In this document: positions 36,861 to 53,636 of the stretch, piece after piece | Position numbering within the stretch: the first letter of the stretch is position 1 | Layout of the letters: the number at the start of each line of letters is the position of its first letter | NCBI GenBank assembly: GCA_020249435.1 | Contig: JADCFQ010000017.1 | Location: 1 to 64,000, forward strand | DNA from: Roseomonas sp. | GTDB lineage: Bacteria > Pseudomonadota > Alphaproteobacteria > Acetobacterales > Acetobacteraceae | Length of the DNA stretch: 64,000 nt | Direction of reading: 5' to 3' | Notes under the pieces: generated by a model | What the model was told of the DNA's origin: nothing | The model's input: the letters and a program-made list of their open reading frames with translations, nothing else | Database searches by the model: none | Translations under genes and position numbers: made by a program

Positions 36861-38248
36861 CCGCACCCGTTCCCTCCCTCGCGGAAGCCTCGGCTGGCAT
36901 TGCCGCCGGGACGCTTTCACCTGTCGCACTGACAGAAGCGGCGCTGGCGCGCATTGCCGCACTTGATCCGAAGCTGAATGCCTTCATCACCATCACCGCG
37001 GATCGCGCGCGGCGCGCGGCAGCCTTGGCCGAGGCTGAAATCAAGGCCGGCAGAAGGCGTGGGCCGCTGCATGGCATCCCCTATGCGCTTAAGGATATCT
37101 ACGATGTGGCGGGCGTGCGCACCACGGCGCATTCCAAGCTGCTGATTGACAATGTTGCGCGCGAAGACGCTGCCTCCACCGCCAGGCTGGAAGCCGCCGG
37201 CATGGTGCTGCTCGGCAAGCTTTCGACGCATGAATTCGCCCGCGGCGGGCCGACTGATGTGCTGCCCTTCCCCAATGCGAAGAACCCTTGGAACACCGCG
37301 CATTTCGCTGGCGGGTCCAGCAGCGGTTCCGGCGTTGCCGTCGCCTCTGGCATGGTGGGGCTTGCCATGGGCAGCGATACGGCCGGGTCCATTCGCCTGC
37401 CCGCCACCTTTTGCGGCGTTGTCGGGCTGAAGCCGACCTATGGCGTGATCAGCCGGCGCGGTATTGTGCCGCTTTCCTTCACACTGGACCATGCTGGGCC
37501 GCTGACGCGCTCGGTGGAAGATTGCGCTTTGGCGATGCAGGTATTGGCCGGGCATGATCCCGGCGATCCGGGCTCGGCGCGGGAAGCGGTGCCGGATTAC
37601 AGCGCCGATCTGCGCAAGGGTGTGGCGGGCCTCACGATCGGGCGCGCGCGTGCTTACGATAGTGAAGCGGGTGTGGATGCCGAAGTCATGGCCGCGGTGG
37701 ATGCGGCGGCTGAACAATGGCGCGCGCTGGGGGCCAAGATTGTTGACGTTGCGCTGCCGAGCAAGCGGCGCATGGATGCCTGCATTCAGACCATTCTGAT
37801 CGCGGAAGGTTTCGCCATTCATGGTGGGTGGCTGCGCACCCGCCCGAAGGATTATGGGCGCGTCACGCGCGAACGCCTGATGATGGGCGCCTTCGTCACC
37901 GGCGGAGAATACGTCCAGGCGCAGCGGCTGCGGCGGATCATCACGGCAGAAGTGGATGCGGTGCTGGCCGGTTGTGATGCGATTCTCTGCGCAGGCAATC
38001 CAACCGCCGCGCCGCGTGTGGTGGATGTGGATGAAGGACCGTTCCGCAAATCCCACCCCATCACCGGCCCCTTCAATGCCACCGGCCATCCGGGGCTAGC
38101 GCTGCCTTGCGGCTTTGGCGCGTCTGGCCTGCCCTTGGGGCTGCAATTGATCGGGCGGAGTTACGGGGAAGCCATGCTGCTGCGCATTGCGCAGGCTTAT
38201 GAACAGGCAGTGGGGTGGATGGCGCGGCGTCCTGATTTGGGGGGATGA
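36857..38248 (+). CDS. Amidase-signature hydrolase (AtzE/AtzF-like)
   Basis: 463 residues. The Ser-cisSer-Lys triad is visible: K79 in GIPYALKDIYDV, the cis-Ser in AGGSSSGSGVAVASG near residue 155, and the nucleophile Ser in GSDTAGSIRLPATFCGVVGLKPTYG near 178. It hydrolyses a carboxamide, biuret- or allophanate-type substrate being plausible given the AtzG-like partner. Translational coupling on both sides (ATGA at each junction) ties it to the AtzG-like gene and the MFS carrier downstream. Confidence 0.9.
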   Translation: MTAPVPSLAEASAGIAAGTLSPVALTEAALARIAALDPKLNAFITITADRARRAAALAEAEIKAGRRRGPLHGIPYALKDIYDVAGVRTTAHSKLLIDNVAREDAASTARLEAAGMVLLGKLSTHEFARGGPTDVLPFPNAKNPWNTAHFAGGSSSGSGVAVASGMVGLAMGSDTAGSIRLPATFCGVVGLKPTYGVISRRGIVPLSFTLDHAGPLTRSVEDCALAMQVLAGHDPGDPGSAREAVPDYSADLRKGVAGLTIGRARAYDSEAGVDAEVMAAVDAAAEQWRALGAKIVDVALPSKRRMDACIQTILIAEGFAIHGGWLRTRPKDYGRVTRERLMMGAFVTGGEYVQAQRLRRIITAEVDAVLAGCDAILCAGNPTAAPRVVDVDEGPFRKSHPITGPFNATGHPGLALPCGFGASGLPLGLQLIGRSYGEAMLLRIAQAYEQAVGWMARRPDLGG

Positions 38249-39378
38249 GGGGCGCCACGCTCACCGCGCTTTCCGGCACGGCGGCAACCTGCACCGGCAT
38301 CGGCCTTGCGCGCTTTGCCTATGTGCCGCTGTTTCCGGCGATGGTCGCGGCCGGCTGGGTTGATGGCGCGGAAGCGGGCTTGCTCGGCGCGCTCAATCTT
38401 ACCGGCTATCTGATTGGGGTTGGTGGCGTGCGGGCCTTAGCGCGGCGCGTTTCCGTGCCGCGTGCGCTGGATATGGGTATGGCGATGGCGGTGATCGCTT
38501 TCGCCGCCTGTGCCTGGCATGGCGGGCTGGCCTGGCTCGGCTTTTGGCGCTGCTTGGCAGGTATTTCAGGCGGCATGTTGATGGGCCTTGCGGGGCCTTC
38601 GGTGCAGGCGGTGACACCGCCGGAACGTCGCGGGCGCGCGGGAGGCATGGTGCTGTTTGGTGTTGGCGGCGGCATTACACTTGGGGCGCTGTTGGTGCCG
38701 CTATTGCTGCATGGAGGGGTCGCTGCGGCCTGGCTTGGGCTTGCTGGCGTTGCGCTGGTCTTGTGGCTGGTGATGCGCCCCTTCTGGCCGCGCCCACCAG
38801 TGGCGGAAACCGCGCCGGAAGGCCGCGCCCCGCCGGCGCTTGGCATCATCATCGCCTATGGGCTTTCAGGTGCGGGGCTGGTGCCGCCGATGCTCTATTT
38901 GTCGGACCTTGCCGCGCGGGGCAGGGGGCTTGGTGTTGCGTTTGGTGCCGGCATGTGGGTGCTATTCGGCCTTGGCTGCATCGCCGGTGCCGTGCTGGGT
39001 GGGCGCGCGGTGGATCGTTGGGGAGGGCGCCTCGCCATCCTGGTATGGATGGTGATCCAGAGCATTGCGCTATCACTCGCCTTGCCGCGGGCGCTTTGGG
39101 TGCTGGTGCCGCTTGGCCTGGTTTCCGGCTTTGCCGCGCTTGGTATTACGACCGTCGCCTTGGCCGCAGCGCGGGAGAGGGCGGGCGCCTTGGCCGGCGT
39201 GATCTGGGTGCGCGTGACGGCAGGCTTTGCGGTTGCGCAGGCCATTTCGGGTTTTGCCTTGGCAGCACTATTTCGCATGACCGATGAAAGCCACGCCGCG
39301 GTATTTGCGGCGGGGTTTTTGCTGTCACTCGCGGGTTTGGCTGTGGCCTGGGCGGATTGGCGCTGGCGCTGGAACTGA
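38245..39378 (+). CDS. YbfB/YjiJ-family MFS transporter
   Basis: 377 residues with about 12 hydrophobic helices. The N-terminus (CTGIGLARFAYVPLFPAMVAAGW) is the diagnostic YbfB/YjiJ opening, and YLIGVGGVRALARRVSVPRALDMG is its first cytoplasmic loop. The ATG overlaps the amidase stop (ATGA), so the carrier probably imports the amide or exports the product. Inner membrane. Confidence 0.88.
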   Translation: MRGATLTALSGTAATCTGIGLARFAYVPLFPAMVAAGWVDGAEAGLLGALNLTGYLIGVGGVRALARRVSVPRALDMGMAMAVIAFAACAWHGGLAWLGFWRCLAGISGGMLMGLAGPSVQAVTPPERRGRAGGMVLFGVGGGITLGALLVPLLLHGGVAAAWLGLAGVALVLWLVMRPFWPRPPVAETAPEGRAPPALGIIIAYGLSGAGLVPPMLYLSDLAARGRGLGVAFGAGMWVLFGLGCIAGAVLGGRAVDRWGGRLAILVWMVIQSIALSLALPRALWVLVPLGLVSGFAALGITTVALAAARERAGALAGVIWVRVTAGFAVAQAISGFALAALFRMTDESHAAVFAAGFLLSLAGLAVAWADWRWRWN

Positions 39379-39382
39379 AAAG

Positions 39383-40837
39383 CTACGCCCTTCCGCGCGT
39401 GACCAAGCGCCCCGGCTTTTCGCCCGTCGCACCCTTGCCGGCAACGAAGGTGGATACACCATTGGCCCAGACTTCCTCGATCCCGGCGCTTTCCTGCTTC
39501 GGGTTTTCGAAAGTCGCGCGGTCAATCACCGTATTCGGATCGAACAGCACCAGATCGGCATAGGCGCCTTCGCGGATCACGCCGCGATCCACCATGCCAA
39601 AGACCGCAGCAGGACGGCCGGTCATTTTATGCACGGCGGTCTCCAGGGTGAACAGGCGCAATTCGCGCGCATAAAGGCCGAGCACGCGCGGGAAAGTGCC
39701 CCACAGCCGAGGATGCGGATGCGCATCATGCGGAATGCCATCGGAGCCAATCACCGACATGGGATGCGCCATGATGCGGCGCACATCGGCCTCATCCATT
39801 TGAAAGGTGATCTGGCCTGCGGGCAGCAAACGCTCAGCCGCCAGGCGAATATCCGTATTCCAGCCGCGCGCAATATCGGACAGATATTTGCCCGCCATTT
39901 CCGGATGCGGAATGGACCAGGTGATCATCACCTTCACATCATCGCGCAGCCGATCCGGCATCAACACGGTGGACCCCGCCGGATAGGGATAAACGTCAAA
40001 GCAGACTTCCTGGCTTTGCGCATAGGCATCAATCAGGGCGAGCGTCTGATTGGACCGCCCATAATTTTCCGGCATCGAGCATTTATGGTGGCTGATCCAG
40101 ACCGGGCAGCCGACACGATCACCGATTTTCAGCGTTTCCTCGATGGAAGCGCAAACGCGATCCGCCTCATCACGCATATGTGTGACGTATATGCCGCCAT
40201 AGGCGCGGAGCGGCTCGGCCACCGCGATCACTTCTTCGGTCGTCGCATGCATATTCAGCGGATAGTAAAGCCCGGTCGAAAAGCCGGATGCACCTTCAGC
40301 GAGGGATTGCTTGACGCGCAGCCGCATGCGCTCAATTTCGGCATCATTGGCAACGCGCATGACATCGCCATTCATCACCTCAACCCGCATGGTCTGATGG
40401 CCGACCAGCGCATAGGTATTCACTTCAGAACCCTGCTTTTTCAGCTCATGCGCGTAATCGCCGAAACTGTCGAAGCGCCACCAGCCATCTTCGCCAATCA
40501 GATCAAGCGGCGGCGGCGGGCGATTGGTGAAACGCGCGGGGGCCAGGCTGACACCGCAATTGCCAACCACAACCGTGGTGACCCCCTGGCTGATCTTGCA
40601 GGTCATGCAGGCGGGCCCGCATAGCACGGCGCGGTCATCATGGGTGTGGCTGTCAATGAAGCCGGGTGCCACTGCCTTGCCGCCCGCCATCACTTCACGG
40701 TCCGCACTCGCGCCGCCGAGATCACCGACGGCCACGATGCGATCCCCCGAAACCCCAATATCGCCGCGCCGGCTTGCAGCGCCGGTACCATCAATGATGG
40801 TCGCATCGCGGATGATCAGATCGCAGCGGAGAGCCAT
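39383..40837 (-). CDS. N-acyl-D-amino-acid deacylase (amidohydrolase)
   Basis: 484 residues from the ATG at 40837. The metal-binding amidohydrolase start GFIDSHTHDD near residue 60, a C-terminal EGAYADLVLFDPNTVIDRATFENP, and VTTVVVGNCGVSLAP are typical of the D-aminoacylase family. It removes the acyl group from D-amino acids and related N-acyl compounds. Its end is 4 bp from the end of the MFS gene on the other strand. An upstream ATG at 40936 would add 33 residues of low quality. Expression must come from the 198 bp between 40838 and 41035, in which I see no clear promoter. Confidence 0.88.
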   Translation of the reverse strand: MALRCDLIIRDATIIDGTGAASRRGDIGVSGDRIVAVGDLGGASADREVMAGGKAVAPGFIDSHTHDDRAVLCGPACMTCKISQGVTTVVVGNCGVSLAPARFTNRPPPPLDLIGEDGWWRFDSFGDYAHELKKQGSEVNTYALVGHQTMRVEVMNGDVMRVANDAEIERMRLRVKQSLAEGASGFSTGLYYPLNMHATTEEVIAVAEPLRAYGGIYVTHMRDEADRVCASIEETLKIGDRVGCPVWISHHKCSMPENYGRSNQTLALIDAYAQSQEVCFDVYPYPAGSTVLMPDRLRDDVKVMITWSIPHPEMAGKYLSDIARGWNTDIRLAAERLLPAGQITFQMDEADVRRIMAHPMSVIGSDGIPHDAHPHPRLWGTFPRVLGLYARELRLFTLETAVHKMTGRPAAVFGMVDRGVIREGAYADLVLFDPNTVIDRATFENPKQESAGIEEVWANGVSTFVAGKGATGEKPGRLVTRGRA

Positions 40838-41035
40838 GGCGCAGTCCTGGGCTGAGTGTTGCAATTCAAGGGATAATGACCCAGAGCCGGTAAGGAGGAA
40901 ACCCCTGAGATAGCAGCTCAGACCAGGGGGCCTCAATTTGAATCTCGTTTACTTTCGTTCACGGGATACGCTCCAACCTCTTGTTTGATCGCATTTTCCG
41001 AGTCACCAATTGAAGGCGCTTGGTTTGAAGACGCG

Positions 41036-43486
41036 CTATTTGCGCGGGGCAGAATTGGCTGGCGGCGCCACCAGGGCCATCGCCTTTTCTGTGCCAAGCA
41101 GGATTTCGGCAAACCTGATGATGTCATGGCGTTGCAGCCCACCGCCATCCAGCCCGTTGAGGATGGATTTGAGCTTTACGGAATGACTAGTCTGCAGATT
41201 GTCGAACGCTTGAAAGTGTCCGGCACGGCGACCGGCCTCTTCCAGGCGCCTTAGCGCCCGGGCTAAAACTTCAATATTGAGGACAACGGCAGCACGGCGC
41301 TTGGCATTCGGTTCATGAAGGGCGGGCAGAAATTGCAGTTTGATGATCTGTTGCGTGGCCTCCTTGATTACTGAACCGATGTTATCTAGCAGAGGAGTAA
41401 AGATTTTTTGCTTATCCTTGATGCGTCCACGGGATGCGATTTCGAATTCGCTTAGCAGAGCGACATATTCCTCGGCGATTTGCGCAGCGCGCACAGCGTC
41501 TTCGGAGGGTAGAGACGGCAAAGGATTTCGTTGTAATGCCTGAAGATTTTCATCGATAATGCTGACAGCGACCGCCGAGATACGAGTCGCAGTTGCTAGT
41601 ACCGAACTGGGGCTCTGCGCGCGGTCCAGAAGGCTTGCCAAAGCCAAGCTGAACGCGGCTTGTCCCTCCTCCGCGGGTCCCTTGAGCGCGGCCAGGACCA
41701 GTTCTGGAGATGGTCCGGAAAAGGAGGCCAGCTTCGCTTCCCAAATCCCATCCGCGTGCCGCCAAATGCTGGCCGCCAGATCAAGCAATTGCCTGGTTCC
41801 TGCCGCGTCAAGCCCGACACCCGGCAAGCCTTGGGGGAATGACAGGGTCGCCGAAAGACGTGCGGCTTCGGCCCAAAGTGCGCGGCCTTCCGAATCAACC
41901 TGCAAGACATCAAAGAAACTGCGACCGCCGAGTTTGGCCGAAATCTGCTGTACCTCTGGCCCCATCACTTCTCGGAGTGCATCTGCAATCGGCTGCAGGG
42001 CAGGGCGCGGTAATTTCGCGCTACCGGCGCGCCATTCACTCATGGGCACTACCGCGCCATCGAAGGGCAAGAACAATATACGCGTGAAAGTGATTGGGCG
42101 CGGCGGCCTCAGGAGCTTCAGCCTTGGGCGTGCTGCTTCGATGATCGGATCAAGCATCGCGCGCGCAGGTACGGCTTCCAAAACCGCAACGACCTGCCGC
42201 AATACCGAATCGGAAGCAAGGGAGGTGCGCTTGGAAATGCGCGAAAGCGCGTCCGCGCCATCATTGCCGTCATGCCCAGCCTGGGTGAGGGAGCGTGTGG
42301 ACTGCACCAGATAGGCTTCACGCAGCTTCTTTGCTTCAGCGGCGATGCTTGTGCCATGTGACCCGGTCAGAAGTGTTTCATTGCGGGCGATGAATTCCAT
42401 CGGGCGGAAACGCCGCCAGTCGACGCCCTCGATGCTGGTTGCCCTTTCCTTTCGGTCTTTGCTGGCGCCTTTGGGGAAGCCACTCCAGCCTTCGACCTCC
42501 TTCGGGAGATGCGGCACCAAATCACTCATTTCCCAGAATGATGCTTCCCTGTCGGGTGGCGCGGATTGCCGCCATAAGGCGATAATGATATCCCAACCAT
42601 CGAGCAACCACTGCGGGCGGAGTATGCGCTGCATTACCGCTGCCTGATCGCGCTGCCAAGCGCGCAGAAGGATTGTAGTATCCTCTATCACCCGATCAAG
42701 TTCGCTAATCGATGCCTGAGCGCAGATCAGGGAAAGCTTTGCCTTACGCAACAGGAATTCTGCCCGAAACCCACGCGCGCTGTCGCGGCGAGGGGCGAGC
42801 CACTGCTCAAGCTCGGCAATAAAGGATTGCAGATCGGCCAATGCCCTTCGGGTATGGCCGGTCACAGAATCATTTCGCTTGCCGAGAGGCATTAAAACGC
42901 TAGCCAAGGCCTCCAACGCCGCCTCAACCGCCTCAACGGTCATGGAAAAGCGCTTAGCGATGCGGGCCACTGCCTTGCCGATACGTGGACGTAGGTAAAG
43001 CAGACTTTCCTGTTCCGGGGGCACCTTTGCCTCGGCGTGCAATTCGGTACGACGAATCAAGTCAGTCAGTAGCAGAAAGAATATGCGGCGCCGCGCATTG
43101 GTATCAGCCGTCTTTTGTTCCTCTGCCCAGGCCATGGCAGACCTGCCACGCCACCCTTCAAGGGCAACGCTGATCATTGCCTCACGCAGCCTGTCCGGGG
43201 AAATTTCGGGTATGGCTTGGAGTTTTCTCCAGAGTACTTTGTCATGCGCCGTGAGCCAAGGCGTACGTAGGAATTGCGTTTCCGACAGGGTCATTTGCCC
43301 CGACTCTCCCGCAAGGTGGCTCAGAGTCACATGGGGCTGGGCACCCGGGAGGGCGCGACTGACGCAGGCACCGAACAATTGCGGCGTAGTGAACGCTACG
43401 ACAACGCCGCGTTCCGCAAAGCCAGCCGGATCGTCTCTACTCTGCCGTCCCGGGACTGAGGGGGGGGAATTGCCGCTTCCTGACAT
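41036..43486 (-). CDS. Paralogue D of an uncharacterised 820-residue family
   Basis: 816 residues, fourth and most divergent of four tandem relatives. It keeps the N-terminal RGVVVAFTTPQLFGA, EGWRGR, the central PQWLLDGWDIIIALW, LPKEVEGW and FIARNETL, the C-half LRPPRPITFTRILFLPFDGA, LWAEAARL and IWRHADGIW, and the tail FAEILLG. It lacks the LPW-type segment in its usual form (TPW instead) and has a shorter linker between the halves. No signal peptide, membrane helix or enzyme motif is visible; the composition is helical. I cannot name a function. It starts 124 bp after paralogue C, with two small hairpins in the gap (AACCT/AGGTT and GTTTCA/TGAAAC). Confidence 0.75.
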   Translation of the reverse strand: MSGSGNSPPSVPGRQSRDDPAGFAERGVVVAFTTPQLFGACVSRALPGAQPHVTLSHLAGESGQMTLSETQFLRTPWLTAHDKVLWRKLQAIPEISPDRLREAMISVALEGWRGRSAMAWAEEQKTADTNARRRIFFLLLTDLIRRTELHAEAKVPPEQESLLYLRPRIGKAVARIAKRFSMTVEAVEAALEALASVLMPLGKRNDSVTGHTRRALADLQSFIAELEQWLAPRRDSARGFRAEFLLRKAKLSLICAQASISELDRVIEDTTILLRAWQRDQAAVMQRILRPQWLLDGWDIIIALWRQSAPPDREASFWEMSDLVPHLPKEVEGWSGFPKGASKDRKERATSIEGVDWRRFRPMEFIARNETLLTGSHGTSIAAEAKKLREAYLVQSTRSLTQAGHDGNDGADALSRISKRTSLASDSVLRQVVAVLEAVPARAMLDPIIEAARPRLKLLRPPRPITFTRILFLPFDGAVVPMSEWRAGSAKLPRPALQPIADALREVMGPEVQQISAKLGGRSFFDVLQVDSEGRALWAEAARLSATLSFPQGLPGVGLDAAGTRQLLDLAASIWRHADGIWEAKLASFSGPSPELVLAALKGPAEEGQAAFSLALASLLDRAQSPSSVLATATRISAVAVSIIDENLQALQRNPLPSLPSEDAVRAAQIAEEYVALLSEFEIASRGRIKDKQKIFTPLLDNIGSVIKEATQQIIKLQFLPALHEPNAKRRAAVVLNIEVLARALRRLEEAGRRAGHFQAFDNLQTSHSVKLKSILNGLDGGGLQRHDIIRFAEILLGTEKAMALVAPPANSAPRK

Positions 43487-43610
43487 GATCCTGGATTATC
43501 GTTACTGCCATTCGTTTCACGGTCATGAAACACAACCTTCGTGAGGTTAGGGCATCTTGATCATTTCTCCAAGGGCTTTTGCACGTAATGTCACAGTCCT
43601 TCGTGGGTCA

Positions 43611-46073
43611 TCATGCAAGAAAGGCGAGGCCTGCTTCTGGCCCCAGCAAAATTTCTGCCAAACGCGCAAGGTCCAATCTCGTCATTCCGCTCGGCTCCAG
43701 CGCGCCTTGCGCTGCCCCGAGCGCCGCAGAGATGCGCGCCGCGGCGCCATCATAGCCGTGGTCGGCACCGTAGCGGCGCCCAATGTTTTCAATGCGGCGC
43801 AAGGCGCGTGCCTGGCCTTCCATGGCCAGGATGAGTTCCGGCGTGGCAGCGGCGCAGAGGGCGGGCAATTGACGCAGGATATGGGTTTCAAGCCCTTCTT
43901 CATAGGCGAGGCGGCAGGTCACCTCGGCCTCCTGGCGTAATTGCACCAAACGCGTGCCACGGCGCGGATTGCGTGTGGTGGGCGCGTTTTCCAGATCCTG
44001 GAAGGCTCTTCCAAAGGATTCGGCAAAGGCAGCGGCGGTGATGAGATCCTCGCCCGGCAAATGAACCCGCGCCCTTTCCAGCCAATCATCCACCGCTGCA
44101 TCGGCGATAATGCCCGCCTTGTCGGATAATCTGGCCGCTTCCTTGGCGACCTGGCCCGGGCTGGTTGCCTTTTGCATCAAGGTCGCCAGCGCCATGCCGA
44201 AGGCGGGCGAATTCTCGGCGACCATGGGGGAAAGCGCGGCGCGCACGGCATCATCCGGTGGCCCCCAGCCGGCAAGCTGGATCGCTGCCCAAAGCGGGAC
44301 GGCATGCTGCCAAATGCCGGCAGCGAGTTGAACCAGGGGCGCGAAGTCATCGCCGCGCAGGCCAGTGCGTTCCCAGCGAGGACCTGGCCTGAGCTCCGGT
44401 GCGAGCCGCGCGGCGGCCCCCCAGAGGATCCGCCCGGCATGATCAACCGCGGCGATGTCATGAAAAAATTTGCCACTGAAGGAAGCTTCAAGCTGTTCAG
44501 CTTCTGCGCCCATGGCCAGGCGCACGGCCTCGGCTATCGCGGGTAATGCGCTTCGTGGCAGCCTGGCATCGCCCTTTTGCCAATCCCGATTATCGGAAAT
44601 GGCCCCGTCGAGGGGTAGAAACAGCAGGCGGGTGAATTGCAGGCCGCGCGACGGCCTGATCTGCCGAAGCCTGGGCCGCGCCGCATCAAGCAGGCGATCA
44701 GCCTCGGAACGATCGGGCAGTCGGTCAAGAATTTCGATGACCTGCGCAAGCGCCATATCCGATGCTGATGCCAAGGCATGTATCAGGTGGCGTGTTTCTG
44801 CGAATTGGTTCCTGCCCCGCCCGGTATCCTTTCCCCCATGGCCATTCACCTTGGCCGCCGCCGGCTGGATAGCGGCTTTGGCATTGTTGTTTGCCGGGCG
44901 AGACACGCTCGCTTTCTTGATGATGATGGGTTTGCCGCGCGACTTGCCTACACTGAAGGCCAGGTTTTCATTGCGTGCAATCATGTCAATCACGCGCCCG
45001 CTCCGCCAATCCTCAAATTGGCGGATGATCCTGAGCTTGCGCCTTTCCTGTGCCATGTCAGGCGCGAAGCCGAGCCACCCCATGACCTCCTTAGGCAGGA
45101 TTGGCGCGAGCATCGCCATTTCAATGATGGCGGCGCTCCTGTCCGATGCGTCGGCTGCATTCCAGATGCCGAGAATCGCCTCCCACCCGTCCAGCAACCA
45201 ATCAAGCCTCGACAATTCCTGGAGAATATCCGTCCTGTCACGCTGCCATGCCTGAATGGCCGCGTAGGTATTGCCAATCAGCGCGTCAAATTGCTCGGTT
45301 GCCCTGAGTGAGCCTTCAAGGGTCAGCTGCAGCGACTGCCCGACCAAAGCGGCTGAACCGGAATCCATATGCGCGGGCAGGTCGCCCCGCCATGTTTCCA
45401 ATGAAGCCGCAAGGGTTTGAAGCTCCCAAATCACCCGGCGTGAGGGGGCCATATCATTGTCTTTTGGCATGCCAAAGCCGTTGAAAGCCCGGGCCAATTC
45501 CTCAAGCGCGGCAGCCACCGCCTCGGTCGTCATGCGCAGTTCTTGCGCGCAGGCCATGACCGCGCGTTGGCCGCGCATGGCAACTTGGCGCGGGTCATCC
45601 ATTTCCGGTGCCGGACGACCGGGGTTGGGCCCTTCCATTTGTTTGATAAGACCGAGCAATAATCCGAAATTGATACGCTTGGCACGATCTTCGCGGCCTT
45701 GGCGTGTCTGATTGACAGCCATCATGGCCGCGCGCCCGGCATGGCCTTCAAGCGCTGCCGTCTCGGCTGCCTCCCGAACGATCGCAGGCGTCAGAATGGC
45801 CTCATCGCGCAGCAGGTGCCAAAGCCTGCGATCATGCAAGGTTGGGGTGCAGATTTCGGGTATGGAGGCCCATGGCAGGATATAGACCCCGTCTCCGCCT
45901 GAAGGATTGGGGATCAATACCTCAAGGCCCTCGCGCTCTTGTTGAGGTCTCGCGCGCGCACCAAGCAAAATGGGTGTTGTGAAAGGTACATTCACACCAC
46001 GCTCGGTGAAGGTCACCGGCTCATAGAGGTTCGGGCTTAGACGCTGAAGGTCATGTGCAAGGTTTGTCGACAC
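43611..46073 (-). CDS. Paralogue C of an uncharacterised 820-residue family
   Basis: 820 residues from a GTG at 46073. Shared blocks in order: FTERGVNVPFTTPILLGAR (near 22), VYILPWASIPEICTPTLHDRRLW, EGHAGRAA, LDWLLDGWEAILGIW, LPKEVMGWLGF, DWRSGRVIDMIARNENL, then a basic Ala/Asn/Gly-rich linker (KPIIIKKASVSRPANN region, roughly 390-430), then IRPSRGLQFTRLLFLPLDGA, ILWGAAARL, AAGIWQHAVPLW and LAEILLG at the C-terminus. No known fold or catalytic motif is recognised. A terminator-like hairpin separates it from paralogue B upstream, so it probably has its own promoter. Confidence 0.78.
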   Translation of the reverse strand: MSTNLAHDLQRLSPNLYEPVTFTERGVNVPFTTPILLGARARPQQEREGLEVLIPNPSGGDGVYILPWASIPEICTPTLHDRRLWHLLRDEAILTPAIVREAAETAALEGHAGRAAMMAVNQTRQGREDRAKRINFGLLLGLIKQMEGPNPGRPAPEMDDPRQVAMRGQRAVMACAQELRMTTEAVAAALEELARAFNGFGMPKDNDMAPSRRVIWELQTLAASLETWRGDLPAHMDSGSAALVGQSLQLTLEGSLRATEQFDALIGNTYAAIQAWQRDRTDILQELSRLDWLLDGWEAILGIWNAADASDRSAAIIEMAMLAPILPKEVMGWLGFAPDMAQERRKLRIIRQFEDWRSGRVIDMIARNENLAFSVGKSRGKPIIIKKASVSRPANNNAKAAIQPAAAKVNGHGGKDTGRGRNQFAETRHLIHALASASDMALAQVIEILDRLPDRSEADRLLDAARPRLRQIRPSRGLQFTRLLFLPLDGAISDNRDWQKGDARLPRSALPAIAEAVRLAMGAEAEQLEASFSGKFFHDIAAVDHAGRILWGAAARLAPELRPGPRWERTGLRGDDFAPLVQLAAGIWQHAVPLWAAIQLAGWGPPDDAVRAALSPMVAENSPAFGMALATLMQKATSPGQVAKEAARLSDKAGIIADAAVDDWLERARVHLPGEDLITAAAFAESFGRAFQDLENAPTTRNPRRGTRLVQLRQEAEVTCRLAYEEGLETHILRQLPALCAAATPELILAMEGQARALRRIENIGRRYGADHGYDGAAARISAALGAAQGALEPSGMTRLDLARLAEILLGPEAGLAFLA

Positions 46074-46146
46074 ACCCGACGTTTTTGCATGAAAGGCTTA
46101 AAAATTCTGCAACGGAGGCCTGAAGGGCATCTGAACGAAAATCATG

Positions 46147-46171
46147 AAAAAAGACGAAACGCCAATAGGCG
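46147..46171 (-). terminator. Intrinsic terminator after paralogue B
   Basis: Minus-strand hairpin CGCC-TATT-GGCG (46160-46171) followed by TTTCGTCTTTTTT, 17 bp after the paralogue B stop. The stem is short, so termination may be partial. Confidence 0.5.
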
Positions 46172-46188
46172 GTCAAAGATATTCACAC

Positions 46189-48639
46189 TCAGGAAACGTC
46201 TTGTCGGTCGAGCAGGATTTCACGGAGTCGTGCCAAATCGGTCGCCGTTATGCCCAAATCTGATTTTACCTTCTCGGCCGCGTCAAAGGCCCTTGCCAGG
46301 CGCTGCTGATTTTCACCATAGACAGGATCATTGCCGAAATGTCGGCCAAGAATTTCCAAGCGCCGTGCTGCCCGCGCATGACTTTCGACAGCGAGTAGAC
46401 GGTTATCCGAATAGGGTTCGGTGCTTGGGTTAAGCGCCGGCAGAATCTCCTCATCAATGATTTCGAGCAGCACTTCACGGCAATGCTCCTCAAGCCGCCA
46501 GAAAAAGGAGGATAGCTGCTGTCGTCTGCGTGGGATTTGGAAATAGGGCGTCAGGCCAAGCGCTTCCAGGGTCTTGCCGATTTCCTCAGCCCGGTTGGTG
46601 GCTTCGATCCAGTCCTGTTCGGCAAGCTTTGGCAGCGCGGCTTCAATCCATTCTTCCAGGGCCTGAATGACTACTTCTGAAGCCCCCGGCGGCATGCCTG
46701 CGGTAAGCGCAGTGAAATTGGCGACATTGCCGGAGGCCAAAAGCAATGTTCTGAACGCCGCGCGAAATACATCAGGCCCTTCGCCGGCTGGCCCGGACAG
46801 GGCAGCGCGCAGTGCATCGGCGGAGACAGGCGCTGCACCCTGGCGGAGCACACCCCAAATGGGACCAGCATGGCGCCAAACACCGGCAGCAAGGCGCATC
46901 ATGCTGCGGAAATCTTCGGGCGTGAAGCCCGCATCGGCCCAACGGGAACCTGGGGTGATTTTCTCGCATAGGCGTGCGGCAGAGGCCCAAACGGGGCTTC
47001 CCAAGCGTTCCACAAGATCAAGATCCGTGAACAGCGCTTGCGATGGCGCTGCTTCCACCTCTGTCAAGGGACCATGTGGTAGATCACGCAGCAGCGAAAA
47101 AATCGGCCTGAGTGCGGCCCTTGGAATGGAAGCCGGATCCTGGCGCCAGGCGGCCCGATCCACCAAGGCGCCTGACAGCGGCATGAAAAGCAGCCGCATC
47201 ATGTTAAGCGGACGCGGCGGCCGTAGCTGTGCCAGCCTTGGCCGAACATCGGTCAATAATGTATCAAGTTGAGAACGATCCGCTAGGCGATCAATCATCG
47301 CCATGATGCGCAGCAGATTTTCATCACTGGCATTGCTGAGATTGGCAGCCAAGCCATCCACATTGGCGCCATCCGAAGGCGCCTGCTTCCTGATGCCATC
47401 CTGGAATTCGGCGCTTGCCGACCTTTTCGTGCCACCGCCTGAATACTTGTTGATCCGAACACGCCTTTTTCCAATGGCTGGCTGTTCCCCAGCCCCGGTC
47501 ATGCGATTTTCATAATTGAGCGTGAAGCCGATCAGCCCTTCATTTCGGGCTGTGATTTCAATATTGCGCCCGCTGCGCCAATCGGTGCCTTGCGAGATCA
47601 CCCGCGTCAGTCTTGCGGGGGCTTCCCTGTTTTTCTCAGCCGTAAACCATTCATGCACCTCCCGCGGGAGAGGCGGGAGCAAGGCTGCCATATCCCAGGC
47701 GATGACGTGGCGAAGATCATGCGGGGTGCGATGCCAAAGGGCCACCAATATTGACCAGCCATCAAGAAGCCATTCAACGCGCCTTGCTCTTTCAAGAATT
47801 CTAGCCGCATTGATTCTGGGGCGGGACAGAAGCTCCACCATATCGCCAAGGCGCGCGTCCGTTTCAGCCCAGGCAAGATCCACATAATGCAGCGTCGTCG
47901 CTGCAGCTTCCGAAAGAAAGCGCATTACGGAGGCGTCATCGCCAGTCTCACGCTTGTCGGCGGCTGCCCTGAATGCCGCGCTCATGCCAAGGATTTCTTC
48001 CTTCAGCCGGACGAAGGGGGCCTTCTCGGCCGATCCGGAGGGACCAAGGCAGGCCAGCGTTTCTGCCAGTGCTCCAAGAGATTCCATCATTGCGGGATCG
48101 AGTGGTTGCGCCGGCGGCTGCAGGGTCTGAATGCGCTGCTCATCGGCGTTCGGTGCCGCCTCAGCTTGCAGGCTCGCCGGCGCCCCACCAGCCAGCTGCG
48201 CTAGAAATTGGCGCATGAGCCTTGACTGATTGCATTGTTCATCCGCAAGCGCCTTGCGGGCTGCATGGGCAACCTGCCGTCCCGCAGTACCTTCACTGGC
48301 GACCTTGAGTGCTTCATGGCGGATCGCGGTTGGGTTGATATCCTTCAACTGCGAAAGGATTTCCCAAAGCCGAAGGTCGAAAAGGCTGGGCGCACCAATA
48401 TCAGGCAGGGCGCGCCAGGGCATTACATAGCTGCCCTTGGTCTGTGCCGGATTGATCAGAATGAGTTCGAAGCCGCGGCCATTTGGCTCGAGCCTGATCC
48501 GAGCCCCCAACAATCTTGGGCTCGTAAAAGGAACACTCGCGCCAAGGGCCGCGAAGGAGGCAACATCTTCCCGTGCCGATTGCGCTTCCTCGCGCGTCAT
48601 GGCTTTGGGCACAGACGTACTCACCGGGCGTGGTACCAT
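46189..48639 (-). CDS. Paralogue B of an uncharacterised 820-residue family
   Basis: 816 residues. Shared blocks: ASVPFTSPRLLGARIR, VMPWRALPDIGAPSLFDLRLW, EGTAGRQ, VEWLLDGWSILVALW, LPREVHEWF, DWRSGRNIEITARNEGLIGF, a basic Ser/Gly linker (KRRVRINKYSGGGTKRS) near residue 400, then LRPPRPLNMMRLLFMPLSGA, VWASAARL, AAGVWRHAGPIW and LREILLD. The N-terminus is uncertain: ATG codons at 48639 and 48600 are both possible and neither has a clear ribosome-binding site. No function can be read. It follows paralogue A by 76 bp. Confidence 0.78.
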   Translation of the reverse strand: MVPRPVSTSVPKAMTREEAQSAREDVASFAALGASVPFTSPRLLGARIRLEPNGRGFELILINPAQTKGSYVMPWRALPDIGAPSLFDLRLWEILSQLKDINPTAIRHEALKVASEGTAGRQVAHAARKALADEQCNQSRLMRQFLAQLAGGAPASLQAEAAPNADEQRIQTLQPPAQPLDPAMMESLGALAETLACLGPSGSAEKAPFVRLKEEILGMSAAFRAAADKRETGDDASVMRFLSEAAATTLHYVDLAWAETDARLGDMVELLSRPRINAARILERARRVEWLLDGWSILVALWHRTPHDLRHVIAWDMAALLPPLPREVHEWFTAEKNREAPARLTRVISQGTDWRSGRNIEITARNEGLIGFTLNYENRMTGAGEQPAIGKRRVRINKYSGGGTKRSASAEFQDGIRKQAPSDGANVDGLAANLSNASDENLLRIMAMIDRLADRSQLDTLLTDVRPRLAQLRPPRPLNMMRLLFMPLSGALVDRAAWRQDPASIPRAALRPIFSLLRDLPHGPLTEVEAAPSQALFTDLDLVERLGSPVWASAARLCEKITPGSRWADAGFTPEDFRSMMRLAAGVWRHAGPIWGVLRQGAAPVSADALRAALSGPAGEGPDVFRAAFRTLLLASGNVANFTALTAGMPPGASEVVIQALEEWIEAALPKLAEQDWIEATNRAEEIGKTLEALGLTPYFQIPRRRQQLSSFFWRLEEHCREVLLEIIDEEILPALNPSTEPYSDNRLLAVESHARAARRLEILGRHFGNDPVYGENQQRLARAFDAAEKVKSDLGITATDLARLREILLDRQDVS

Positions 48640-48715
48640 GATGCTAGCGGTTCAATGGCCTGCGAACAGAAAAACGCATTGGCCGCTACGCGGACCGTGC
48701 AGCTTGGGTGGAAAA

Positions 48716-51250
48716 TCACTGGTTCCTGAGCCTTTGGCGGCGGGCGCGGGGCACGAATCTCTCGGCGGCTTTCTGCCCGATGAGGATTTCTTCGATGCGG
48801 GCCACTTCCATTGATGACGCGGCGGGTGATTTTTCCTGCTGCAGCCAAGTTTCCATCCTGGTACGGAATTCGTCCTGAAGCTCCTCATAGACTATGGATG
48901 AGCCAAAAAGCTTGCCGGTGTCTTCCAATATGCGCGCGGTACGCGCCATGCTTTCGATCTGGCCGATACCTTCCAAATCATCAACTGCCAATTCGAGCAA
49001 GGCCTGAATCACGTGCACGGATACAACTTCGCGGTAGGTGTTGCGGCAGAATTGATCCAGGTTGCGCCGATGGGCGACAAGCTCCTTGGCGTCAGTTTTT
49101 GCCGCAATGCGCGGCAATTTCTCAAGTGCAAGGATGACGATACCGATCTCTCTGGCAAGGCGCGCGCCAGCCGCAAGATCCTCTTCCAGCAAGATGCGCA
49201 GGGTGGCGCCAACCCATTTGTTCAGAATATCCTCAACGATCGGTATTGTTGGGGCCGGCAGATCCTGCAGCAGGGGAACTAAGACCGAAGGCCGCGCGGC
49301 GCGTTGCAGAAGCCCATTCATGGCGGCGGCAAATACGGTCTTGTTCTCATTGGCAGGACCGATCAAGGCAGCGCGAAGGCCTTCCGGCGTGCATTCCCCG
49401 GCAACCTGCTGCATGCCATCCCATAGTGGCCCAGCATGGCGCCATAGGGCGCCGGCAAGACTGGTGATTGCGTCAAATTCCGGCCGCCCAAGTTCAATCC
49501 GCGACCAGGAGGCATCATGCACTAATTGCGGCACCGCCAAACCTGCAGCTTGCCATAATGGACGAGCGACACGGTCTATAAGCTTATCGTCTTCAAGGGT
49601 GGCGCCGCGGAGCTGTAGCGTTGCTGCTTCGATCTGCGGCCCGAGCCTAGCCGTAACGGCCCCCAGCAGCGGGGCAAGCGCAGAACGGGGTATTCGCCCT
49701 TCAGTGCGCCGCCATTGCAACGGGTCTATCAGGGCACCCTCAAGCGGGATGAATAGTAGACGCATGAGGCTTGCCGGACGAGGCGGGCGCAGGCGCTTCA
49801 GGCGCGGCAAGGAAGGTCCAAGAAGCCTTTCATGAATTTCGGCATTGCCGATCCTATCCACCAATGCGACGATCTTGCTAAGCACCCGCTCCGAAGCTGT
49901 TTCGATAGCGAATCCCAGTGACATTGTTTCGTTTATTTTGCCGGCTTCTCCGGTAGTCTGCTTTGCGTCGTCTTTGCCGCCATTGGGCGACTGGTCTTTG
50001 GCTTGACTGATGTTAGGGGTAGTATTGTCACGTTTTCCCGTGACTGTCGCCCCATTCATGCGTGACATCGTGACTTTTTCGTGCAGCATGGCGGGTGATG
50101 AAACACGGTTTTCAAAAGCGATCGAAAGACCGATCAGGTTTTCGTTACGCGCCACCATTTCCATCGTATTGCCGCTACGCCAATCTGATTTTTCGCGGAC
50201 AACCTGCGTGATGCGCCGTGGCGTATCTCGCCAATCGGCTTTTTCGCCAAGCCAGATTTTACCTTCGCGCGGCAGTATCGGCGCGATCGTGGCCATTTCC
50301 CATATGGCCGCTTGGCGCTGATTGGGGCCCGCCGCCTGCCAAAGCGCCATGGGTGTTTTCCAGCCATCCAATACCCAATCAGGCCCACGTGCGCTTTCGA
50401 GAATGCTATCCCTTTCGGTACGCCATCTCGGTATGCGGTTCCCCAGATCGGCGATTAGGGCATCCGTACTCGCCAAGGCCAAGTTGCCGCATTCCAAGGT
50501 CTGACGCGCCGTTGCCACCACGAACTTGGCAGCCATGATATGCGCGCCTTCCTGCTGTTCACCATCTATCCAATCGGTAATCTCATCTGTTGTTCTTTTG
50601 AGTTCTGACATCATTCGCCGCAGCCGTCCCTCTTCGCCCTTCATTTTGGGGCGGGCGCCGCTCAAAGCCACGGCGAGTGCTTCAAGATCAGCCGCGAACT
50701 CCGCCAATCCAACTTTCGCGACCGTAGCGGCACGCGCCGTGGCGCGTTTGGCGCGTTTCATGAAAGCTGAGCCGTCTTCTGTAGCGGGGCGGCTTGAGGA
50801 TTCGTCTGTTGTCTCAGTGGCGGCGATCAGGCTTTCAAGCAGCATGCCCCGGACCATCCGCTGACTTGCCTGTTCCCTGCGCAGGGCATCCTTCGCCGCC
50901 AATGCAGCTTGCCGCCCCGCAAGCCCCAAGGTTGCCAATCTTTGAGCCTCATGCCTGATGCCGATGGGCGAGATATCGCTGCTTGTGGCAAGGCTTTCCC
51001 ACAAATGTCGATCGAAAAGTGTTGGCGAACAGATGTCCACCATCGCCGACCACGGCAAAATCAGCGCGCCTCTGCCCCCGGAAGGATTGGCAACCACCAT
51101 TTCAAAGCCGCGTCCGGATGCGGCGACACGGATACGCGCATTGAGCAAAAGAGGCGTCGTGAAAGGGACGGTTGCGCCCCTATCACGAAAACTCGTTGGC
51201 TCAAAGGCATCTGATCGGAACCGGTCAAGTTCGGCGAGGGAATTGGACAT
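48716..51250 (-). CDS. Paralogue A of an uncharacterised 820-residue family
   Basis: 844 residues, first in transcription order. N-terminal module: RGATVPFTTPLLLNARIR (24-41), NPSGGRGALILPW (55-67), CSPTLFDRHLW (74-84), GLAGRQAAL (109-117), WVLDGWKTPMALW (292-304), ILPREGKIW (325-333), DWRSG (356-360), VARNENLIG (366-374). A polar linker (about 385-445, rich in Asn, Lys, Asp, Gln) separates the C-terminal module: LRPPRPASLMRLLFIPLEGA (487-506), ALWRHAGPLW near 600 and EEILIG near the end, then a very basic tail (RARRQRLRNQ). No transmembrane segment or known enzyme motif. DNA is somewhat less GC-rich than the neighbouring operons. Function unknown. Confidence 0.8.
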   Translation of the reverse strand: MSNSLAELDRFRSDAFEPTSFRDRGATVPFTTPLLLNARIRVAASGRGFEMVVANPSGGRGALILPWSAMVDICSPTLFDRHLWESLATSSDISPIGIRHEAQRLATLGLAGRQAALAAKDALRREQASQRMVRGMLLESLIAATETTDESSSRPATEDGSAFMKRAKRATARAATVAKVGLAEFAADLEALAVALSGARPKMKGEEGRLRRMMSELKRTTDEITDWIDGEQQEGAHIMAAKFVVATARQTLECGNLALASTDALIADLGNRIPRWRTERDSILESARGPDWVLDGWKTPMALWQAAGPNQRQAAIWEMATIAPILPREGKIWLGEKADWRDTPRRITQVVREKSDWRSGNTMEMVARNENLIGLSIAFENRVSSPAMLHEKVTMSRMNGATVTGKRDNTTPNISQAKDQSPNGGKDDAKQTTGEAGKINETMSLGFAIETASERVLSKIVALVDRIGNAEIHERLLGPSLPRLKRLRPPRPASLMRLLFIPLEGALIDPLQWRRTEGRIPRSALAPLLGAVTARLGPQIEAATLQLRGATLEDDKLIDRVARPLWQAAGLAVPQLVHDASWSRIELGRPEFDAITSLAGALWRHAGPLWDGMQQVAGECTPEGLRAALIGPANENKTVFAAAMNGLLQRAARPSVLVPLLQDLPAPTIPIVEDILNKWVGATLRILLEEDLAAGARLAREIGIVILALEKLPRIAAKTDAKELVAHRRNLDQFCRNTYREVVSVHVIQALLELAVDDLEGIGQIESMARTARILEDTGKLFGSSIVYEELQDEFRTRMETWLQQEKSPAASSMEVARIEEILIGQKAAERFVPRARRQRLRNQ

Positions 51251-51411: not shown

Positions 51412-52350
51412 TTAGGCTACGCGGTGCAAAAGCGCCTCTCCGCCGGCGAGTCGCCGGCAATTCTCGCCAGCAAGGCTGAAGGACCGGGCGAAGGTCCCGG
51501 TGGAAAGCCAGGCGACATGCGGCGCCAGCACCACATTGGGCAGGGACAGCAGCGGGTCGCCAGGGTCCACAGGCTCGGCCGCAAAGACATCCAGCCCGGC
51601 GGCGGCCAAATGGCCGGATTGCAGCGCCGCCACCAGGGCCGGCTGATCCACGAGGCCGCCGCGGGCGGAATTCACCAGCACGGCACCCGGCTTCATCCGG
51701 GCAAGTGCTGCCTTATTGAGCAAGCCGCGCGTTTCTGGCGTTTCCGGGATATGGAGTGAGACGACATCAGCCTCTGCCAATAGCGCCTCCAAGGGCCGAA
51801 ATTCACCCACCGCCTCGGGCTTCGGGGTGCGGGCGGTATACAAAACCTCGCACCCCATGGCGTGCAGAACAGGGGCCAGCAGCTTCGGCACCGCGCCATA
51901 GCCAACCAGGCCCACTTTCCGCCCCCCCAATTCAAACAGCCCATCCTGCAGGGCAGGGGGCTGGGACCAGCCGCGCCCGGCGCGGGTCTCGGCATCGAAA
52001 TAGGCGATGCGGCGGAGTGCCCCCAGCATCAGCAATAGGGTCATTTCCGCGACGGCCCGGCTATTGGTGCCGGGCAGGTTGCACACTGCAATGCCCCGTG
52101 CGCGGGCGGCTTCCAGGTCAATCGTGTTCACGCCCACACCGATTTTCTGGATCAGGCGGAGCTTGGGTGCGGCGGCGATATCAGCCGCGGTGATGGGGCG
52201 GAGCACATGCCAGATCACCTCCGTCTCCGGCAGCAGGCGCGCGAAAAGCGCCGCATCGGCTTCCGGGCAGATGGTCAGGTCAAGGCCGGGAAGGGAGGCC
52301 AATCGCGCTGCCAGCCCCGGCCCGGCGTCATAATGCAGGAGCACTTTCAT
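51412..52350 (-). CDS. D-isomer-specific 2-hydroxyacid dehydrogenase
   Basis: 312 residues from the ATG at 52350, overlapping the enolase-like stop (ATGA). The catalytic trio is present: Arg in VNSARGGLVD, Glu in FAAEPVDPGDPL and His in VVLAPHVAWL. The cofactor loop reads VGYGAVPKLL, with Pro at the third Gly position of GxGxxG, a variant seen in some members. It should interconvert a 2-keto acid and a D-2-hydroxy acid with NAD(P)H. As last gene of an operon with a kinase and an enolase-like protein, it may act on the keto acid they produce (inference). Confidence 0.9.
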   Translation of the reverse strand: MKVLLHYDAGPGLAARLASLPGLDLTICPEADAALFARLLPETEVIWHVLRPITAADIAAAPKLRLIQKIGVGVNTIDLEAARARGIAVCNLPGTNSRAVAEMTLLLMLGALRRIAYFDAETRAGRGWSQPPALQDGLFELGGRKVGLVGYGAVPKLLAPVLHAMGCEVLYTARTPKPEAVGEFRPLEALLAEADVVSLHIPETPETRGLLNKAALARMKPGAVLVNSARGGLVDQPALVAALQSGHLAAAGLDVFAAEPVDPGDPLLSLPNVVLAPHVAWLSTGTFARSFSLAGENCRRLAGGEALLHRVA

Positions 52351-53636
52351 GGCCCGGACCGCCCAAGATAGGCGCCGCCCGCAAAGCGTGCCCTCGCGCC
52401 AAGGCTTTCTTCCACGCGCAAGGCTTCGTTCCATTTCGCCATGCGTTCAGACCGCGCGAAGGAGCCGACCTTCAATTGGCCGACACCCCAACCCATCGCC
52501 AGGTGGACAATGGTGACATCCTCGGTCTCGCCCGACCGGGCGCTGACAATGCCGGCGAAGCCCACGTCACGCGCGGCATCCCAGGCAGCTTTCGTTTCGG
52601 TCAGCGTGCCGCGTTGGTTCGGTTTGATCAGCACGGTATTGGCGGCACCCATGGCGGCAGCCCGGCGCACGCGCGCGGCATCCGTCACCAGGAAATCATC
52701 GCCCACCACCTGAATGCGCCCGCCCACTTCACGGGTGAAGGCGGCAAAGCCCGCCGCATCATCCTCGGCCAGAGGGTCTTCGATGGACGCAATGGGATAG
52801 GCCGCAATCCAGCCAAGCAGCATGCGGATCATCTCATCAGTGCCGAGTTCGCGGCCTTCAAGGCCAAGCTTGTAGCGCCCGCCCTTGCCGAAATCCGTCG
52901 CGGCAATATCAAGCGCAATCGCCACTTGGCTACCCGGCGTGAATCCTGCTTTTTCGATGGCGGCAACAAGGGTTTCCAAAGCCTGTTCATTGGCGGTGAA
53001 AGCCGGCCACCAGCCACCTTCATCGGCGACCCCTTGCAATAGGCCGCGCTGCTTCATGATGGCGCCGGCGGCGCGATAGACCTCAGCGGTCCAATCCAAA
53101 GCCTCGGCAAAGCTGGTCGCGGCCGGGCACATCACCAGAAAATCCTGGATATCCACGCGCCGCCCGGCATGGGCGCCGCCACCCAGAATCTGGATTTGCG
53201 GCAGCGGCAAAACATCCGGCGCATCACCGCCCAGATAGCGCCATAATGGCACAGCTTCCGCCGCGGCGGCCGCATGGGCGGCAGCCATGGAAACGGCGAG
53301 TGTTGCATTGGCGCCGAGGCGCGTTTTTTGCGGCGTGCCATCGCGCGCGATCAGCCGCGCATCCAACCTGGCTTGCGCGCGCGCATCCATGCCAAGCAGG
53401 GCAGGGGCCAATTCGCGGTTCACGGCATCCACCGCGCTTGTCACATCATACCCGCCAAAGGCGCTGCCGCCATCGCGCTTGTCCAAAGCCTCACCACTGC
53501 CGGTGCTCGCACCGGCGGGGGCAATGGCGCGGCCTGTAGCACCGCCGGCGAGCGTGATTTCCGCCTCCACGGTAGGCCGGCCTCGGCTATCCCAGACGCG
53601 GCGGCCACGAATGGCGGTGATGATGGTGCTGTTCAT
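52347..53636 (-). CDS. Enolase paralogue with altered active site
   Basis: 429 residues, normal enolase length, with clear homology: WDSRGRPTVEAEI, GASTGSGEALDKRDG, GANATLAVSMA, GGGAHAGRRVDIQDFLV, VADEGGWWPAF, ALDIAATDF, SIEDPLAEDD, VGDDFLVT, LIKPNQRGTLTET, SGETEDVTIVHLA. Metal ligands (D in ALDIA, E in SIEDP, D in VGDD) and the base Lys (LIKPNQ) are kept, but the enolase His in SHRSGETED is Ala here (SARSGETED), and the Glu of QEF is Asp. It probably dehydrates a different phospho- or hydroxy-acid rather than serving glycolysis. Coupled by ATGA overlaps to the kinase upstream and dehydrogenase downstream. Confidence 0.85.
   Translation of the reverse strand: MNSTIITAIRGRRVWDSRGRPTVEAEITLAGGATGRAIAPAGASTGSGEALDKRDGGSAFGGYDVTSAVDAVNRELAPALLGMDARAQARLDARLIARDGTPQKTRLGANATLAVSMAAAHAAAAAEAVPLWRYLGGDAPDVLPLPQIQILGGGAHAGRRVDIQDFLVMCPAATSFAEALDWTAEVYRAAGAIMKQRGLLQGVADEGGWWPAFTANEQALETLVAAIEKAGFTPGSQVAIALDIAATDFGKGGRYKLGLEGRELGTDEMIRMLLGWIAAYPIASIEDPLAEDDAAGFAAFTREVGGRIQVVGDDFLVTDAARVRRAAAMGAANTVLIKPNQRGTLTETKAAWDAARDVGFAGIVSARSGETEDVTIVHLAMGWGVGQLKVGSFARSERMAKWNEALRVEESLGARARFAGGAYLGRSGP

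Follow-up and report, generated by a model that had tools for sequence, protein, structure and literature searches.

Among described systems, one point of comparison is FlmG of Caulobacter, which is reported to be a cytoplasmic flagellin glycosyltransferase acting on several flagellins (PMC7591256). FlmG resembles what we guess for the proteins of this study, namely a cytoplasmic alphaproteobacterial system working on several flagellins. It differs in being a glycosyltransferase: membership of the present proteins among FlmG-like enzymes is not claimed, and no Pfam match to a glycosyltransferase domain was obtained in the window proteins or in 96 separate halves of their relatives. Importin/karyopherin-type proteins and designed helical-repeat proteins are a further point of comparison, as the top weak structural matches were helical repeats and bundles.

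A nearer comparison is offered by pairs of genes, termed here N and C, in Neoroseomonas, Paracraurococcus, Rhodopila and Azospirillum (for example AZOLI_RS23215/AZOLI_RS23220), which encode the same two domains in the same order. The N half of Neoroseomonas alkaliterrae is 44% identical to copy B of the present set, and the split pair of Neoroseomonas oryzicola occupies the same chromosomal locus. These relatives have two genes, mostly as one pair (two in locus L145), whereas the present set consists of four fused genes. No published description of the N-C family was found in a literature search that included accessions and locus tags.

The present set lies in a stretch of 64,000 nucleotides of Roseomonas sp. 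(contig JADCFQ010000017.1, positions 1 to 64,000), which is referred to as the window.

Four tandem genes of a two-domain family

The four genes, their domains and the linker of copy B are as follows.

41036..43486, minus strand: copy A, fused N+C protein of 816 aa; 73 of 83 near-invariant residues kept, the most diverged core
41069..42274, minus strand: C domain of A; relatives encode it separately (about 400-450 aa)
42368..43438, minus strand: N domain of A; relatives encode it separately (about 375 aa)
43611..46073, minus strand: copy B, fused N+C protein of 820 aa, GTG start; 82 of 83 core residues kept
43614..44813, minus strand: C domain of B (C profile)
44817..44963, minus strand: linker of B, residues 371-419, mostly low pLDDT; stop and start codons here in relatives
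44961..46028, minus strand: N domain of B (N profile)
46189..48639, minus strand: copy C, fused N+C protein of 816 aa; 77 of 83 core residues kept
46213..47388, minus strand: C domain of C (C profile)
47533..48579, minus strand: N domain of C (N profile)
48716..51250, minus strand: copy D, fused N+C protein of 844 aa; 77 of 83 core residues kept
48752..49945, minus strand: C domain of D (C profile)
50132..51214, minus strand: N domain of D (N profile)

The genes fill positions 41036-51250 with intergenic gaps of 124 bp (A-B), 115 bp (B-C) and 76 bp (C-D). In the core count, copy B served as the reference row besides being scored itself. The preliminary description of this DNA had reported four same-strand paralogues of about 820 residues and proposed their shared descent. 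Both points are borne out, since the proteins have the lengths listed above, all on the minus strand, and BLASTP aligned all six pairs along their full length (810-837 columns) with 27-34% identity and 238-388 bits, far above the best score of 28 bits among 100 shuffled copies. The same description had listed an ordered series of motif blocks. Their order and consensus were recovered in the alignment, but not every copy carries every motif: copy A reads VAFTTP and EGWRGR and lacks LPW, copy B has IRPSRG, and copy C terminates in EILLD, with the departures falling mostly in copy A. The reported absence of a signal peptide or membrane helix agrees with the highest 19-residue Kyte-Doolittle mean of 1.39 across the copies. 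A search of the window's genome for a fifth copy returned only these four.

Using profiles built from the split genes, we defined the N-C family by an N domain followed by a C domain, and copies A-D all show this arrangement. The E-values of the four genes ranged from 8.3e-78 to 2.9e-117 for the N profile and from 1.7e-65 to 1.1e-107 for the C profile.

Within the libraries searched (Pfam, NCBIfam, PADLOC and PDB sequences), the earlier statement that these proteins have no recognisable family is confirmed. Pfam and NCBIfam gave nothing near cut-off for the four window proteins. When 48 N-half and 48 C-half relatives were searched singly against Pfam, for which cut-offs were available for the first member only, each family that appeared did so in 3 of 48 at most, and the lowest E-value was 0.00038, in 1 of 48. 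The best PDB sequence match for profiles of either half was a designed helical protein (E 0.013), which was judged to be chance. A distant kinship visible solely to profile-profile methods could still exist.

Concerning the fold, the AlphaFold2 models of copy B (143 aligned rows, pLDDT 87.9, pTM 0.84) and of a lone N half (pLDDT 86.5, pTM 0.86) contain a small three-stranded sheet near the N terminus, the remainder being mostly helices. Foldseek against the PDB gave no match at E <= 0.001 for the copy B model or the N-half model; the fold of the C half is less well tested because it was folded only within copy B. Against viral models, the best Foldseek match (0.0074) was a tape measure protein with a TM-score of 0.07, which was rejected, and the VIA structure search gave generic helical matches only. 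Karyopherins, designed repeats, BAR domains and others in the fold lists were attributed to common helix packing. The explanation that fits best takes the four proteins for isoforms of a soluble two-domain scaffold composed mostly of helices.

Two-gene ancestry, fusion and the four types

Outside the window's clade, most relatives encode this protein in two adjoining genes, N of about 375 aa and C of about 400-450 aa. The median N-C spacing was -4 bp (range -19 to 184) among 55 pairs from Acetobacteraceae loci, a set that includes a few unplaced or oddly named MAGs and in which gene starts were set by a codon-usage script; such spacing is the usual sign of translational coupling. In other alphaproteobacterial families, 16 adjacent N-C pairs were found in 15 of 18 regions around C-profile matches; one of these 15 contains two pairs, and the three remaining regions show a C gene with no called N gene next to it. 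Across the sampled genomes, matches to the C profile occurred in 18 of 289 from the class, and matches to the N profile in 6 of 398 from the phylum, every one of the latter within the class (window's genome included in both counts), and the absences are not firm because few candidates were scored per genome (at most 8 for the C profile in the order, 6 for the C profile in the class and 4 for the N profile in the phylum).

Several of these pairs have features of their own. One locus in another alphaproteobacterial family (L145:5330-10565) carries two unfused N-C pairs in tandem, apparently an independent duplication. Much diverged pairs occur in another genus of the bacterial family (L118:6461-8738 and L119:6242-8547), with a C half that the profile recognises weakly; the neighbours of the L119 pair include an RsmB-like methyltransferase and a ribulose-phosphate epimerase. 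On large Azospirillum plasmid records, N-C pairs are annotated as 'hypothetical protein', and both halves were confirmed by profile in three.

The fusion point of copy B falls inside a linker that is mostly of low confidence in the AlphaFold2 model (residues ~371-419). The 83 core residues, conserved in >=85% of rows, include 24 in residues 22-113, 20 in 289-369, 21 in 437-571 and 12 in 752-811. As the blocks 289-369 and 437-571 flank the junction, they are read as a putative N-C interface.

Two phylogenetic trees were built by a quick method, one from 111 rows of the N part and the other from 114 rows of the C part. A single branch set the 47 fused rows apart from the others (SH-aLRT 94 in the N tree and 97 in the C tree), and A, B, C and D formed four clades with support of 100 each in both trees. 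As judged from these trees, it is shown that the fusion happened once and was followed by duplication to four types in one Roseomonas-like clade. In the N tree, the rows closest to the fused clade are the split pairs of Neoroseomonas and its allies; copies C and D join in this tree, where the program flags a possible long-branch effect.

A survey of copy number showed the four types to be common to the clade, with all four present in 16 of the 19 genomes that have fused copies. Four full-length copies each were found in the window's genome and in G005, G007, G014, G019, G022, G023, G024, G031, G033 and G034. G012 has all four types and an extra D, while G008 (with an extra D), G017, G026 and G027 have all four types with some copies cut by contig ends. 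The second D-type copy lies near the first in G012 and G008 (L193 and L194). In G002, which is 91% complete in 520 contigs, A, B and D were found and C was not matched. The genes stand in tandem in many genomes of the fused clade; in G005 and G024 they lie at four separate places and are all retained.

Between orthologues, dN/dS was 0.13-0.26 (9 comparisons), and by this measure the four copies are shown to be under purifying selection. The tandem arrangement in many clade genomes could be taken for a recent, near-neutral amplification without functional meaning. Such an origin is hardly credible in view of the 27-34% identity between copies, the low dN/dS, the retention of the same four types and the conservation in each copy of 73-82 of the 83 core residues. 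We are highly confident that the architecture and history of the family, that is, the fusion and the four types, are as described here.

The preliminary description had also suggested a joint function of the copies, as subunits of one assembly or variants of a single function. The clade of its own formed by each copy and the joint retention even when the genes are dispersed support joint function indirectly; the sequences are compatible with both subunits and variants. That the four are independent variants, each with its own homo-oligomer, client or condition, has in our estimate an even chance. This reading draws on the depth and full support of each type's clade, on the separability of the genes in G005 and G024, and on the different computed pI values (A 9.7, D 9.0, B 6.5, C 6.4), but one obligate assembly would account no less well for the joint retention in 16 of 19 genomes. 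It concerns the set and not the question of flagellar function, and its probability is not to be added to those of the other alternatives.

The flanking genes allow the locus to be compared with that of Neoroseomonas.

39383..40936, minus strand: amidohydrolase-like gene, marker on the other side of the set; 89% identity over 483 residues to the Neoroseomonas counterpart
51412..52434, minus strand: D-2-hydroxyacid dehydrogenase, flank marker; 77% identity to the gene near the Neoroseomonas oryzicola split pair
52347..53636, minus strand: enolase, flank marker; 84% identity to the Neoroseomonas counterpart

In Neoroseomonas oryzicola, a single split pair stands between the same markers, together with an enoyl-CoA hydratase gene and one more gene. 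In the genomes with a dispersed set (L048 and L053), copy D remains beside the 2-hydroxyacid dehydrogenase and enolase genes. The shared flanks and the position of D at enolase together indicate that the set grew at its ancestral site. Two predictions near the set were judged doubtful. A plus-strand open reading frame at 39284-40624 has no Pfam match and is probably spurious, the real gene being the minus-strand amidohydrolase-like one; the tRNA-Arg (CCG) called by ARAGORN at 38416-38515 (plus strand) lies inside an MFS transporter frame (38245-39378) and is probably a false positive.

Tandem genes without a known family are sometimes defence loci, and a mobile, defence or phage-derived system was weighed as an explanation. 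Such a nature is very improbable, as PADLOC gave no match at E 0.01 for six proteins, no confirmed match was found in the viral contigs or phage records searched, and the ancestral locus lies between housekeeping genes. Members of the family are, though, present on the large Azospirillum plasmid records.

The neighbours of the pairs in the order include HhH-GPD and MmcB-like DNA-repair genes upstream (in several lineages), two-component genes, enoyl-CoA hydratase and, on the downstream side, MotA/MotB. The upstream neighbours were set aside as a functional clue, since they change between lineages. No common theme was seen among the neighbours examined in other alphaproteobacterial families (lytic transglycosylase, Lyase_1, radical SAM, pentapeptide protein, AsmA, MoxR-type ATPase and others).

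Possible association of the family with the flagellum

Of the 200 genomes searched in the order, 53 gave a match to the C profile and 150 a match to flagellin, and all 53 fell within the 150. The Fisher test gave p 1.3e-8 when the genomes of the order were treated naively and p 0.0066 when counted by genus (20 of 51 versus 42 of 51). Outside the order, flagellin was found in 20 of 20 positives, and that test is uninformative because 17 of 17 negatives, picked by genome completeness and size, were flagellated too.

Loss of flagellar genes within the fused clade provides a second line of evidence. Among the 18 fused-clade genomes tested, FlhA was missing in G025 and G029 only, FliF was missing in both as well, and these are the two clade genomes with degraded sets. 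In G025, A, B and D are in pieces and C is absent; MotA is broken in two, and of five flagellin matches four have internal stops and one is a fragment. Poor assembly alone was judged an unlikely cause in G025, since its ABC permeases are all open among the rows listed. G029 has an open D at a contig end and a B that matches to about residue 591 only, with no A or C; its MotA is open, and its flagellin matches are three open ones, a fourth interrupted by a stop, a short fragment and a weak match. The probability of this coincidence is p 0.0065 if the losses in G025 and G029 are independent, although the two may share one loss event, and about 0.02 if the absent C of G002 is counted as a third degraded set. 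The decay of the set together with the loss of FlhA, FliF, MotA and flagellin points to a service for the flagellum that is not essential to all flagella.

Gene positions and flagellin numbers add further observations. In 9 loci, the distance between MotA and the pair is 1.5-5.4 kb, and this MotAB adjacency looks like one ancestral arrangement. In G005, copy C is on one contig with a flagellin at about 23 kb and FlhA at about 36 kb. In the neighbourhoods annotated, the copies are flanked mostly by housekeeping genes, and none was seen to lie within a flagellar gene cluster. Flagellin matches per genome numbered 4-8 in the 19 fused-clade genomes and 2-3 in the other 16 of the genus; the flagellin expansion and the quadrupling of the family are each one event in one clade. 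The window's genome (G000) has five strong flagellins and a weak match with a 355-aa frame, which is probably the hook-associated FlgL. Its flagellins are on contigs C45, C60 and C10, with four of the five strong ones in two tandem pairs; the split-pair genome G009 has two.

These data have to be weighed against an alternative in which the family is not directly flagellar and serves another trait of free-living, motile alphaproteobacteria (envelope, stress or surface life), the joint losses in G025 and G029 reflecting a lifestyle shift. Many flagellated relatives lack the family: 97 of the 150 flagellin-bearing genomes of the order gave no family match, G003, G011, G013 and G015 have FlhA and no copy, and in G032 the N half is broken while FlhA, FliF and MotA are present. 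Conversely, neither FlhA nor FliF was matched in G016, whose split pair is retained and is open except where contig ends cut it; with 770 contigs in this assembly, a gap is possible. FliF also went unmatched in three genomes that retain the family (G006, G028 and G031), so the absence of any one marker may come from a gap in the assembly. The mostly housekeeping contexts, with no copy seen in a flagellar cluster, also suit the non-flagellar alternative. What speaks against it is that all 53 positives among the 200 genomes carry flagellin and that the decay of the set in G025 coincides with the loss or breakage of FlhA, FliF, MotA and flagellin and not with general gene breakage. We regard the alternative as a real possibility that falls somewhat short of being probable, and a flagellar role of the family as plausible, at slightly under an even chance.

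Proposed function and its meaning

Soluble sequence, coupled genes and later fusion together argue for an obligate cytoplasmic N-C heterodimer. We consider the heterodimer itself probable, and we infer the cytoplasmic site from the soluble character of the proteins. The ancestor is a two-gene N and C unit of Alphaproteobacteria whose products most likely form this heterodimer; in the Roseomonas-like clade, N and C were fused into one chain that was then quadrupled. Flagellar service would be the most likely role of the N-C unit, and the four isoforms may be kept as a set since each would have a different client or a different position in one hetero-oligomer. The explanation as a whole, a two-part helical scaffold serving the flagellum and expanded to four isoforms, is offered tentatively and with less than even confidence.

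As to the step that is served, our guess is the handling of flagellins before export, because the fused clade has about five flagellin genes compared with about two in split-pair relatives. The parallel rise, from about two flagellins to five and from one family member to four, suggests that the isoforms may serve different flagellins or may form one hetero-oligomer. Flagellin handling as the step served is nevertheless doubtful, and the hetero-oligomer of four isoforms is itself guessed. The most specific version, in which a cytoplasmic helical flagellar machine, ancestrally an N-C heterodimer, is now a four-isoform hetero-oligomer sorting, holding or timing flagellins for export, is unlikely as it stands.

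The fusion of two normally separate genes and the possible flagellar link go beyond the earlier reading of this DNA. Novelty is meant here in a narrow sense, namely that no family, fold or known kind of system was matched. Within that sense, the N-C proteins represent a family without a named relative or a recognised fold in the libraries searched, which is spread across several alphaproteobacterial families and is under selection. Its members provide a natural series from two coupled genes to one fusion and then to four retained paralogues, and thus from a heterodimer to a multi-isoform system. The decay beside flagellar genes in two genomes makes the question of motility a specific one. If the family does prove to belong to the flagellum, it would add a new component to a machine that is already known.
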